Source of the DNA: Hydrogenophilus sp.
GTDB taxonomy: Bacteria > Pseudomonadota > Gammaproteobacteria > Burkholderiales > Thiobacillaceae
Length of the DNA: 64,000 nt
Direction: 5' to 3'
NCBI GenBank assembly: GCA_020725195.1
Contig: DYFL01000004.1
Span: forward strand, 1-64,000
Shown: one piece after another, positions 14,554 to 22,133 of the stretch
Layout of the letters: each line of letters starts with the position of its first letter
Position numbering within the stretch: position 1 is the stretch's first letter
Notes under the pieces: model-generated
What the model saw: only the letters and a program-made list of their open reading frames with translations
Told to the model about the DNA's origin: nothing
The model's database searches: none
Translations under genes and position numbers: made by a program

Positions 14554-15882
14554 ATGGAAGCGCGCAGGTTGCTGTGTTTCGATCCGAACCGTTCAGCCGG
14601 GGTCCCCGTGCCGGAGATCCTTACGGCCGGCTGGGCAGTGGATCTCGCCACGAATGCCGAAGAGGCGATGGATCTCCTGGACGGCGGGCATTTCCACGTC
14701 GGCCTCGCCCTGCTCGAAGCGCGGGAGCCGTGCCTCCATTCGGTCGAGAGCCTGTGCAATGCCGATGGCCGGATGAACTGGATCGCCCTGCTGCCCGATG
14801 CCTGCCTGCGGGAGCGCGGTATCGCCCGGCTGATCGGCGAGAGCTTTTACGACTACCACACCCTCCCGGCCGATCCCCGTCGGCTGCTCGCCACCCTGGG
14901 CCATGCCTATGGCATGGCCACCCTGAAGCAGGAGGGCCTCGACGCCGTCGAGGAAACCGAAGAGGAGATGGTCGGCAGCAGCCCGGCGATGCTCGCGCTC
15001 TTCAGCGCCATCCGCAAGGTCGCCGGGGTGGAGGCACCCGTGCTCATCACCGGCGAGAGCGGCACCGGCAAGGAGCTGACCGCGCAGGCCATCCACGAGC
15101 GCTCGGGCAGGGCCGGCGGCCCCTTCGTCGCGGTCAACTGCGGCGCCATCCCTGCCAACCTGATCCAGTCCGAACTCTTCGGCTACGAGAAGGGGGCCTT
15201 CACCGGCGCCAGCCAGCGCAGGATCGGCCGCATCGAGGCCGCGGCGAGGGGCACGATCTTCCTGGACGAGATCGGCGACCTGCCCCTGGACATGCAGGTC
15301 AACCTCCTGCGCTTCCTCCAGGAACGCACCATCGAGCGGGTCGGCTCGACCCAGCCGCTGCATATCGACGTGCGGGTGGTCGCCGCCACCCATGTGGACC
15401 TCGCCAGGGCGGTGGCCGAAGGGCGCTTCCGGGAGGACCTCTACTATCGCCTGCACGTCCTGGACGTCCATGTGCCCGCCCTGCGCGAGCGCCTCGGCGA
15501 CGTCGAAGTGCTGGCCCGTTTCTTCTTCCGCAAGTTCGCCGCCGAGAAGCGCAGCGGCGTGGAGGGCTTCAGCGCCCAGGCCATGCGCGCCATGGAAGGC
15601 CACGAGTGGCCGGGCAACGTGCGGGAGATGATCAACCGGGTCCGGCGCGCCATGGTGATGAGCGAGCACCGCCTGATCACCCCCGCCGATCTCGGCCTGG
15701 AGCGGCGCCAGTCCCGGCGGCGGCTGGTGTCTCTCGCCGAGGCGAGGGCGAGCGCCGAACGGCAGGCGGTCCTGAACGCGCTCAAGCACTCCCGCAACAA
15801 CGTCACCCAGGCCGCCCAGCAACTGGGCGTGTCGCGCATCACGCTCTACCGCCTGATGGAGAAGATGGGCATCCAGCCCTGA
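14554..15882 (+). CDS. Sigma-54 enhancer-binding regulator, VpsR-like, of the Fap locus
   Basis: A 442-residue transcriptional activator. Residues 1-135 resemble a degenerate response-regulator (VpsR-type) domain. The AAA+ domain at about 145-375 has Walker A GESGTGKE, the sigma-54 contact loop GAFTGA, Walker B IFLDEIGD and the arginine-finger region. A Fis-type helix-turn-helix (NVTQAAQQLGVSRITLYRLM) closes the protein. The start at 14554 has GGAGG seven bases upstream, whereas a longer frame from 14437 does not. The intact GAFTGA loop means it should activate sigma-54 RNA polymerase, unlike Vibrio VpsR. A sigma-54 promoter 285 bases downstream, before the amyloid genes, is its likely target. 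The signal it senses is unknown. Confidence 0.88.
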   Translation: MEARRLLCFDPNRSAGVPVPEILTAGWAVDLATNAEEAMDLLDGGHFHVGLALLEAREPCLHSVESLCNADGRMNWIALLPDACLRERGIARLIGESFYDYHTLPADPRRLLATLGHAYGMATLKQEGLDAVEETEEEMVGSSPAMLALFSAIRKVAGVEAPVLITGESGTGKELTAQAIHERSGRAGGPFVAVNCGAIPANLIQSELFGYEKGAFTGASQRRIGRIEAAARGTIFLDEIGDLPLDMQVNLLRFLQERTIERVGSTQPLHIDVRVVAATHVDLARAVAEGRFREDLYYRLHVLDVHVPALRERLGDVEVLARFFFRKFAAEKRSGVEGFSAQAMRAMEGHEWPGNVREMINRVRRAMVMSEHRLITPADLGLERRQSRRRLVSLAEARASAERQAVLNALKHSRNNVTQAAQQLGVSRITLYRLMEKMGIQP

Positions 15883-16166
15883 GCGCGCCCGCCCCCGGCC
15901 GGACGCTGGCTGGAGGCCCTGGGCCGACCCCCTGGATCACCGATGTAGATCAATGGCCTGAACCGCATCCGGCCCGCAGGGCCGGACGCCTGTCTCAGGA
16001 CCGATACACCTTTCACAAGCCTTTGTTTCTACAGGAATCGATGGGGGATTTCCGCACCGCGGGCCTCCGCCCGGCGACACGCTTGTTACACCCCGACGCC
16101 CGTCCTGCCCGGCCATCGCCCCGGGAAAATCCATAAATCAGAATAAAAACAGCAAGATAGATGTCA
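15883..16166. other. Upstream region of the Fap promoter
   Basis: No gene was recognised. A GC-rich imperfect inverted repeat, GCATCCGGCCC / GGGCCGGACGC at about 15964-15990, may be a terminator for the regulator gene or an activator binding site. The stretch 16090-16166 is comparatively AT-rich, as expected upstream of a sigma-54 promoter. Confidence 0.4.
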
Positions 16167-16182
16167 TGGCACGGCAGTTGCT
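16167..16182 (+). promoter_or_regulatory. Sigma-54 (-24/-12) promoter of the Fap operon
   Basis: TGGCACGGCAGTTGCT matches the consensus TGGCAC-N5-TTGC(A/T), with the invariant GG and GC dinucleotides exactly ten bases apart. Transcription would start near 16193, between the promoter and the ATG at 16220. That argues against the earlier in-frame ATG at 16184. An activator gene with an intact GAFTGA loop lies immediately upstream. Confidence 0.88.
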
Positions 16183-20709: not shown

Positions 20710-20858
20710 GTTTTTCTTCAAATCCGGAAGGCCCGGGGTGCTTCACACGCCCCCGCCGGCTGTGTTCCAATCGAGGCAAATCAAAAAATCACAACCAGGC
20801 GGGGGGGCGACCTCCTGCCGCGCATTCCTTGGAAACCCGAACGAAAGGACATCGCGTC

Positions 20859-22133
20859 ATGCGGAGGCTCATCCCCCATCTTTTGGTCTTGCCCGTCGTC
20901 GCCCTGCCCCTGGCCGTCCAGGCCGCGGAGCCCACGGTCGAGGAACTGAACCGGCGGCTCGCCGAACTGCAGCAGCGCTACGAGGCCCAGAACGGCGCGC
21001 TGCAGGTCATGGAGGCGCGCCTGCGGCAGCTGGAGGCGTCCCTGCAGGCCTCGGGCACGGCGCAGCCGGCCCGGCTCCTTAAGGCGTCCTATCCGACCCA
21101 GCTGGCGGCCGCCGACCAGCCGGTCGGCGCCGCTGCCTCAGCGGCTCCGGAAGAGAAGGTGGTCCGAGAGGCACCCGCCTCGCGCAGCGCCGAGGCGGTG
21201 TACCAGGAGCAGCACGCCCTGTTCGACCGCAAATTCACCCTGGAGGCGGGGCTCACCTACAGCCGCTCCGACCGTCGCCAGCTCACCCTCAACGGCTTCC
21301 TGGCCCTGGACGCGATCTTCCTGGGCAATATCAGCGTCGACGAGGTCAAGGCCGACATCCTGACCCTGGACCTCACCGGCCGCTACACCCTGTCCGACCG
21401 CATGCAGATGGACCTGAACCTGCCCTTCCTGTACCGCTCCACGACCTACCAGTCGGGCGGGGCGGGCGGCGCCAGCACCGATCTGATCGAGCACGACGTC
21501 ACCCTGGGTCCCGAGCTCGGCGACGTCAGCGCCGGGGTCTACTACCAGCTCTTCAAGGAGGCCGCCAGCCGCCCGGACGTGGTCTGGAACGTGCGGGTGA
21601 AGGCGCCCACCGGCAGCGATCCCTATGGCGTGGAGATCATCGAGGTGCCGGGCTCCAGCGGCAATCTCAGGGTGCCGAGGAAGCTGCCCAGCGGCAACGG
21701 CGTCTGGGCCCTGTCCACGGGGCTTTCCTTCGTCAAGACCCTGGACCCCGCGATCCTGTTCGCCAACGTCGGCTATTTCTACAACTTCGAGGGTGATTTC
21801 GGCGACATCGACTCGCGTCCGGACACGGTGACACCCGGAAGCGTCAAGCTGGGCGACTCCTTCCAGTACGGCCTGGGCACGGCCTTCGCCCTGAACGAGC
21901 GCATGAGCCTGAGCCTGTCCTACAGCCAGCGCTTCACCGCCAAGTCCAAGACCAAGCGGGCCGGCGAAGGCTGGCAGAGCATCGTCGGCAGCGACGCCAA
22001 CGCCGCCAGCCTGAACTTCGGCGTGACCTACGCCCTGGCCGAGCGGGATGCCCTGGTGTTCAACGTGGGATCGGGGCTCACCCCGGATGCGCCGGATGTC
22101 ACTGTGGGTGCGAAGTACGTGACCACCTTCTGA
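20859..22133 (+). CDS. fapF: FapF-like outer-membrane barrel for amyloid export
   Basis: A 424-residue outer-membrane protein. It has a signal peptide (1-22), a coiled coil at about 24-65 (VEELNRRLAELQQRYEAQNG), a Pro/Ala-rich linker, and a beta-barrel from about 120 ending in an aromatic C-terminal residue (KYVTTF), the usual BAM signal. This order matches Pseudomonas FapF, a trimeric barrel plugged by an N-terminal coiled coil that exports FapB and FapC. The start at 20859 has AAAGGA at good spacing. It is the last gene of the operon and is followed by a strong terminator. Confidence 0.8.
   Translation: MRRLIPHLLVLPVVALPLAVQAAEPTVEELNRRLAELQQRYEAQNGALQVMEARLRQLEASLQASGTAQPARLLKASYPTQLAAADQPVGAAASAAPEEKVVREAPASRSAEAVYQEQHALFDRKFTLEAGLTYSRSDRRQLTLNGFLALDAIFLGNISVDEVKADILTLDLTGRYTLSDRMQMDLNLPFLYRSTTYQSGGAGGASTDLIEHDVTLGPELGDVSAGVYYQLFKEAASRPDVVWNVRVKAPTGSDPYGVEIIEVPGSSGNLRVPRKLPSGNGVWALSTGLSFVKTLDPAILFANVGYFYNFEGDFGDIDSRPDTVTPGSVKLGDSFQYGLGTAFALNERMSLSLSYSQRFTAKSKTKRAGEGWQSIVGSDANAASLNFGVTYALAERDALVFNVGSGLTPDAPDVTVGAKYVTTF

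Follow-up and report, generated by a model that had tools for sequence, protein, structure and literature searches.

The stretch of DNA analysed here (the window) comprises the first 64,000 nucleotides of contig DYFL01000004.1 from a Hydrogenophilus sp. whose genome assembly amounts to 2.84 Mb in 108 contigs. On the evidence of sequence comparison, its positions 16220-22133 are an operon for functional amyloid (Fap), a protein fibre made for biofilms, with the gene order gene X-fapA-fapB-fapC-fapD-fapE-fapF. Very probably this is a Fap locus of the BrfA type, in which the neighbouring VpsR-domain protein activates the operon through sigma-54. Such wiring would extend the control of Fap by cyclic diguanosine monophosphate (c-di-GMP), BrfA and sigma-54 from Pseudomonas to other proteobacteria, and the predicted binding site could serve in sequence-based annotation of fap regulation. 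Wiring of this kind is already known from Pseudomonas; the parts that merit new experiments are gene X and a motif that its product appears to share with FapE.

The preliminary description of this DNA had read seven exported-protein genes in fapABCDEF order; NCBIfam profiles assign the last six to FapA-F, and the first is gene X. All six fap genes follow one another in order on the forward strand: fapA (16599-17078; chaperone-like; NF058617, E-value 1.2e-11), fapB (17075-17683; 3.9e-29), fapC, for the major amyloid subunit (17714-19021; 1.2e-57), fapD (19121-19840; 1.7e-89), fapE (19915-20709; 4e-35) and fapF (20859-22133; 1.4e-149). The profile search that had been suggested as a check thus yields six matches, those of both repeat proteins to Fap families among them. 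Each of these has the three repeats claimed for it, in imperfect form, at residues 43, 105 and 172 of FapB and 113, 181 and 398 of FapC. FapD is indeed an exported C39 peptidase, matched by Pfam and NCBIfam models and retaining the motifs SCGAAA, GYKHF and DPALGN, and both databases likewise identify FapF as a coiled coil joined to an outer-membrane barrel. In its six proteins and their order, the FapB and FapC repeats, the C39 peptidase and the FapF barrel, the locus resembles Pseudomonas Fap (fapABCDEF); unlike that system, it has gene X in first position and a regulator upstream on the same strand, whereas the Pseudomonas regulator lies downstream on the opposite strand. It is most improbable that the locus belongs instead to the fil type (a putative pilus) or to another C39/barrel export system: the FilB (1.7e-28) and FilC (4.3e-16) models also match FapD and FapF, respectively, and same-family regulators accompany loci of relatives whose weak Fap scores make them look fil-type, but the Fap models are far ahead for these two proteins (1.7e-89 and 1.4e-149), and FapB, FapC and FapE are all present with the repeats and order of Fap. 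Across 399 genomes of the order, FapF is found at E-values of 1e-20 or better in 40, the window's own included; many of these are weaker matches of about 1e-40, which we take to mark fil-type loci.

For comparison we used the best 80 of 592 confirmed places from a FapD profile scan of named genomes. These are mostly from Pseudomonas and Halomonas relatives, so that counts over these named loci are not counts of independent events. Among these best 80, the closest FapD is that of a Methylotenera metagenome-assembled genome (MAG), with 64% identity. Of the 80 loci, 66 have a regulator of the same family as the window's next to fap: in 56 it lies downstream and on the opposite strand, in ten upstream and on the same strand. 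The other 14 have none in the sequence examined, some of them being on short contigs, and the Methylotenera locus has a partial copy at a contig edge. The window regulator itself (14554-15882, forward strand, 442 amino acids) combines an N-terminal VpsR domain (Pfam, 9.3e-16), an AAA+ Sigma54_activat domain (1e-71) and a Fis-type helix-turn-helix (HTH_8, 3.8e-9), and the GAFTGA loop that had been read from the sequence is present. Of ten regulators linked to fap or fil that were scanned, nine have the VpsR domain at 1e-5 or better, the exception being a Halomonas copy; Pseudomonas fap-linked regulators likewise carry it. In a tree of 40 sequences, 34 fap- or fil-linked regulators separate from six other activators of the host genome with support of 100/100. 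The regulator also resembles VpsR of Vibrio cholerae in its N-terminal domain (7y19, 2.6e-5; 7v2b, 5.8e-5) and AAA+ core. VpsR acts with sigma-70 at vps promoters; the predicted target promoter of the window regulator, in contrast, is of the sigma-54 type.

That promoter is the -24/-12 element TGGCACGGCAGTTGCT at 16167-16182 on the forward strand, which starts 284 bp after the end of the regulator gene and precedes the seven exported-protein genes. Its GG-N10-GC spacing is exact, as first described, and lies within a TGGCAC..TTGC consensus; the genome encodes RpoN (one Sigma54_DBD match). The pattern TGGCACGNNNNTTGCW has a single exact match in the window and, with one mismatch allowed, two matches against 0.79 expected; because 17 of 100 shuffles also reach two, the element by itself is only mildly unusual. 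Genome-wide, TGGCRCRNNNNTTGCW has nine matches, against one for the pattern read backwards. Among the loci compared, a loose -24/-12 pattern is found upstream of fap in 69 of 79; the opposite strand has it in 2 of 79, and shuffles in 5%.

An enhancer site is predicted upstream of this element. Words of the TGTAACA, TGATACA and TGAGACA type are enriched upstream of the -24 element in both the Pseudomonas and the non-Pseudomonas sets. In 57 Pseudomonas-type upstream regions there are 3.9 copies per region of the half-site TGWNWCA, compared with 0.31 in shuffles; these copies keep to preferred distances and are frequently paired with a spacing of 11 bp. An 18-bp palindromic model was fitted to 57 fap upstream regions, 56 from Pseudomonas and one from a Paucimonas MAG, with none from the window. 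Applied to the 64-kb window, this model scores the palindrome TGTCTCAGGACCGATACA at 15991-16008 best, with 19.6 bits, the next best site reaching 4.9. This candidate BrfA-type site starts 176 bp before the -24 element; the best box of other loci is mostly at -160 to -176 or -71 to -84. Among 21 regions unused in fitting (20 loci, one of them taken twice, with the window included and one Halopseudomonas), 17 have a box of at least 8 bits and 15 one of at least 12 bits, compared with 14 and 7 of 1062 control tiles. The exact consensus box occurs nowhere else in the genome; with one mismatch it is found at four distinct further places, a chance level given nine per strand for a reversed-pattern control. 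Motif searches at widths 17 and 19 in the Pseudomonas set, and at all widths with the non-Pseudomonas loci, ended in models that were uninformative or AT-rich.

Several observations weigh against a BrfA-type Fap locus. With respect to Fap identity, the curated NCBIfam cut-off is passed by FapC only (196 versus 195 bits); the other five proteins, FapA included, fall below theirs, a further difference from Pseudomonas Fap. The FapF cut-off is exceeded in none of the 399 genomes of the order, and the FapD cut-off in none of 274 genomes of the class. The loose -24/-12 pattern was picked after the loci had been inspected (Pseudomonas CGGCAC-N5-CTGCT) and is absent from ten of the 79. Two of these ten, L083 and L084, still have an element, in each case ahead of a displaced fapC. 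The contrast is weaker in a strict scan that demands nine or more of the 11 consensus bases in the region before fapA or fapB: 53 of 89 loci then have a site, and 19 of 89 have one on the reverse strand. As for the enhancer, four of the 21 unfitted regions lack a box of 8 bits, and a doubtful second box in the window, GGCGACACGCTTGTTACA at 16073-16090, scores -0.3 bits as a whole, with only its right half fitting well. The shape of the palindrome was chosen after looking at the loci and is not blind, because the typed seed followed the half-site enrichment in both sets and the spacing; the model weights use no window sequence. The regulator, finally, falls in a 21-row set (98/96) that also includes regulators of fil-type loci, while the Pseudomonas regulators form a separate 13-row set (95/86), in a tree whose bootstrap had not settled; and its binding of c-di-GMP is a conjecture from the Pseudomonas analogy.

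If the operon were sigma-54-dependent yet driven by another activator, with the neighbouring regulator acting elsewhere, candidates would be at hand: the host genome has 12 matches to PF00158, eight of them with E-values below 1e-60. The neighbour is one of these eight, six others being in the tree and one having been left out of it. This alternative appears improbable, given that the genome has a single VpsR-domain match, that a palindrome model derived from Pseudomonas fap promoters fits the window, and that the adjacency of regulator and fap is conserved in the 66 named loci mentioned above. The preliminary description had inferred direct activation of the operon through sigma-54 by the adjacent VpsR-like protein, and comparison with other loci supports this, through the same-family neighbours, the conserved -24/-12 element and the independently weighted palindrome.

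In the BrfA-type control that we favour, the VpsR-domain protein would bind the palindrome at 15991-16008 and loop to sigma-54 RNA polymerase waiting at 16167-16182, where its AAA+ domain would open the promoter, probably at high c-di-GMP. A single transcript would then span gene X and fapA-F and end at the terminator-like hairpin at 22147. FapF would export the fibre builders FapB, FapC and FapE, and FapD, as a periplasmic C39 peptidase, would be needed for this export. The parts, the promoter, the enhancer site and the gene order are supported by sequence comparison; binding, activation, c-di-GMP sensing, export and fibre formation are extrapolated from Pseudomonas. The 36 GGDEF matches in the host genome show only that a c-di-GMP signal can exist. 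A reporter fusion to 16090-16219, as previously suggested, could give a false negative, because this fragment starts downstream of the palindrome.

There is a close precedent for this wiring. According to two reports on P. fluorescens, BrfA is a c-di-GMP-sensing enhancer-binding protein that activates fapA through RpoN (PMC9207406, PMC13101488). For strain PF07, the first of these describes an RpoN-dependent -24/-12 promoter at fapA-E, lowered fap in rpoN and brfA mutants, and brfA as a reverse-strand gene adjoining fap (PMC9207406); RpoN control of fap in P. fluorescens also features in an earlier paper (PMC8202526). The window resembles the PF07 system in its adjacent VpsR-domain activator (442 amino acids, versus 441 from a 1,326-bp open reading frame, ORF), its -24/-12 promoter and a palindrome of the same class upstream, a comparison that rests on regulators beside fap in other Pseudomonas and not on PF07 BrfA itself. 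It differs in that its regulator belongs to another set of the tree, occupies another gene position and is known from sequence only. The wiring had been put forward as one not known to be described for Fap in betaproteobacteria. This stands insofar as our search of the literature on fap operons, RpoN and BrfA/c-di-GMP found nothing on betaproteobacterial fap regulation among the papers listed, and a survey of fap operons across Beta-, Gamma- and Deltaproteobacteria does not mention sigma factors or RpoN in the parts examined (PMC3792158). The novelty is nevertheless weaker than was implied, because the same wiring has been published for Pseudomonas with BrfA.

Gene X (16220-16582, forward strand) encodes an exported protein of 120 amino acids, with a leader-like stretch ASDGELQGVQAKG, which belongs to an unnamed family that we recognise by the motif ILWDE and which has no Pfam or NCBIfam match. 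Position 16220 is taken as its start because the earlier in-frame ATGs precede the expected transcript start; starts at 16166 and 16184 were rejected on this ground. The motif [ILV][ILV]LWDE identifies gene X in 19 of 95 fap or fil loci (the window, 14 further loci and the 80 named ones), none of them from Pseudomonas. Gene X occurs in many fap loci outside Pseudomonas and was not detected in the Pseudomonas loci examined. In an alignment of 16 of 20 ORFs, from which L054-L056 and the fragment-like L087 (kept out of all alignments) were omitted, L67, L90-W-D-E93 and N105 are invariant. Searches with this alignment at E-values of 0.01 or better find gene X in 5 of the 399 genomes of the order and 9 of the 274 of the class. 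Eight of the latter nine also have a FapD-type match, in every case no farther than about 4 kb from gene X, and the ninth is a weak match in a 1065-residue frame; in the order, three of the five also have FapF and the remaining two matches are weak (0.003-0.006). No gene X was found by this search in 12 of 20 class genomes with a FapD-type match, but the search under-detects, as it missed genome G044 even though its locus, L054, has the motif. A narrow literature search for such a fap-linked gene found nothing, and the structure model is poor (predicted local distance difference test score, pLDDT, 63). Beyond its own rows, a 19-row gene X profile retrieves mainly FapE N-termini, with weak E-values (0.005 at best). 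In Halomonas sp. NO4 the set gene X-fapB-C-D-E occurs twice in succession, with a single fapF at the end (L086:7634-17610).

As judged from their sequences, gene X proteins and FapE share a motif after the signal peptide that is in the register of a C39 leader and usually ends in RG[RK]. In the window, the FapE copy is ATDAELGAMRGRY at residues 38-50. Across 79 FapE frames it consists of L/V/I at -12 (78), D at -10 (75), E at -8 (68), L/M at -7 (79), L/M/I at -4 (74) and R, G and R/K at -3, -2 and -1 (79 each), followed by Y/F (78); columns -7, -4, -2 and -1 are so in part by construction, because the finder required L/M/I/V at -7, G at -2 and limited sets at -4 and -1. Only one of 80 FapE frames, a truncated one, lacks the motif. 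When 26 FapE proteins are aligned, R47, G48 and R49 prove invariant and E42 reaches 90% or more. Of the 19 gene X frames, 18 contain the motif, with a hydrophobic residue at -12, L at -7, V/I at -4 (16 of 18), G at -2 and, again in 16 of 18, R/K at -1. The window copy, with A at -2 and K at -1, failed the finder. A pattern with an acidic residue at -8 is seen in 63 of 79 FapE and 3 of 19 gene X frames, against 44 of 6949 other frames.

Classic double-glycine leaders of C39 peptidases have G, A or S at -1 (GG, GA or GS). FapE and most gene X proteins resemble such leaders in the hydrophobic -12, L/M at -7, hydrophobic -4 and G at -2, partly finder-required positions, and most FapE proteins also in E at -8. 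They differ in having R/K at -1, the canonical pattern being absent from all 79 FapE and 19 gene X frames, and in that FapD is periplasmic. In L184, a homologue next to a C39 match that is weaker and fil-like, the stretch is LSAQELGEVSGAG, with A at -1, and resembles a classic leader.

The target of FapD, a periplasmic C39 peptidase, is unsettled, and the shared motif offers a candidate cleavage site that can be tested. We tentatively propose, as a serious possibility at somewhat below an even chance, that the sequence recognised by FapD is a double-glycine leader in a periplasmic variant, L-x3-[ED]-[LM]-x2-[LIM]-R-G-[RK], and that the enzyme cuts next to it in FapE and the gene X protein, the latter being a seventh Fap component and a small secreted substrate of FapD. 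The motif might instead be a degenerate amyloid repeat or a signal for export by FapF, and we give this about an even chance of being right. The FapB and FapC repeats contain a loosely similar pattern by eye, the residue at -1 is R or K and not G/A/S, and the conservation of E at -8 does not extend to gene X, whose window copy has A at -2; no leader family in Pfam or NCBIfam matches the N-termini of either protein. Set against this, the hydrophobic -12, L -7, hydrophobic -4 and G -2 are common to both families directly after the signal peptide, and N-terminal peptides of FapE are missing in vivo (PMC5557850). The FapE model has a helix at residues 40-49, ending at R47-G48-R49, and a beta domain from residue 56, with low confidence in this region (block pLDDT 53-66); a fold search gave no match with an E-value below 0.001. 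Cleavage of FapE appears to have been suspected already by Rouse et al.; the FapD proposal would add the exact site and a second substrate, the gene X protein. No such motif was found in the literature on FapD and FapE, where papers were mostly surveyed by listing. If true, the proposal would settle which proteins FapD cleaves and add a new class to the C39 leaders; gene X and the shared motif turn the question of which protein FapD targets, and where, into a single-residue experiment.

Between fapC and fapD, at 19058-19090 on the forward strand, lies a strong hairpin with a 13-14 bp stem and a short U run (region z -4.5; absent from the terminator scan list), a possible partial terminator or stabiliser. 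In the 130 nt that follow fapC, 26 of 89 loci have a perfect stem of at least 9 bp, compared with 9 of 445 control tiles. Perhaps this hairpin, as a partial terminator, ensures an excess of the fibre subunit. The terminator-like hairpin after fapF (22147-22177, forward strand) has 13 pairs and a fold z of -2.3; such sites are as frequent in shuffles (five found versus 4.9 expected).

Regulators of the same family also adjoin loci with weak FapD or FapF matches, fil-type by our assignment (L053:2102-6276, L058:1732-6018, L059:7610-12146 and L110:2936-7030), and activators of this kind may thus act in several export systems. In L084, from an Acidiferrobacterales MAG, fapC is separated from the other genes of the operon, and a -24/-12-like element of its own belongs to each of the two parts (L084:2725 and L084:4775); the one ahead of gene X-fapA ends in TTGCC. 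Within the window, the 12-mer ATGGCACGGCAG occurs both at 14511-14522, upstream of the regulator, and at 16166-16177, in the fap promoter; the TGGCACGGCAG repeat at 14512 was rejected as a second sigma-54 element, as it has no GC at -12. A one-mismatch -24/-12-like site, TGGCGCGGAGTTTGCT, is present at 38106-38121 on the minus strand. The locus is flanked by two adjacent cyanophycin-synthetase-like genes at 8877-14039 and, 3' of fap at 22393-24565, by an H-NS-like gene followed on the other strand by genes for EF-P and the rhamnosyltransferase EarP.

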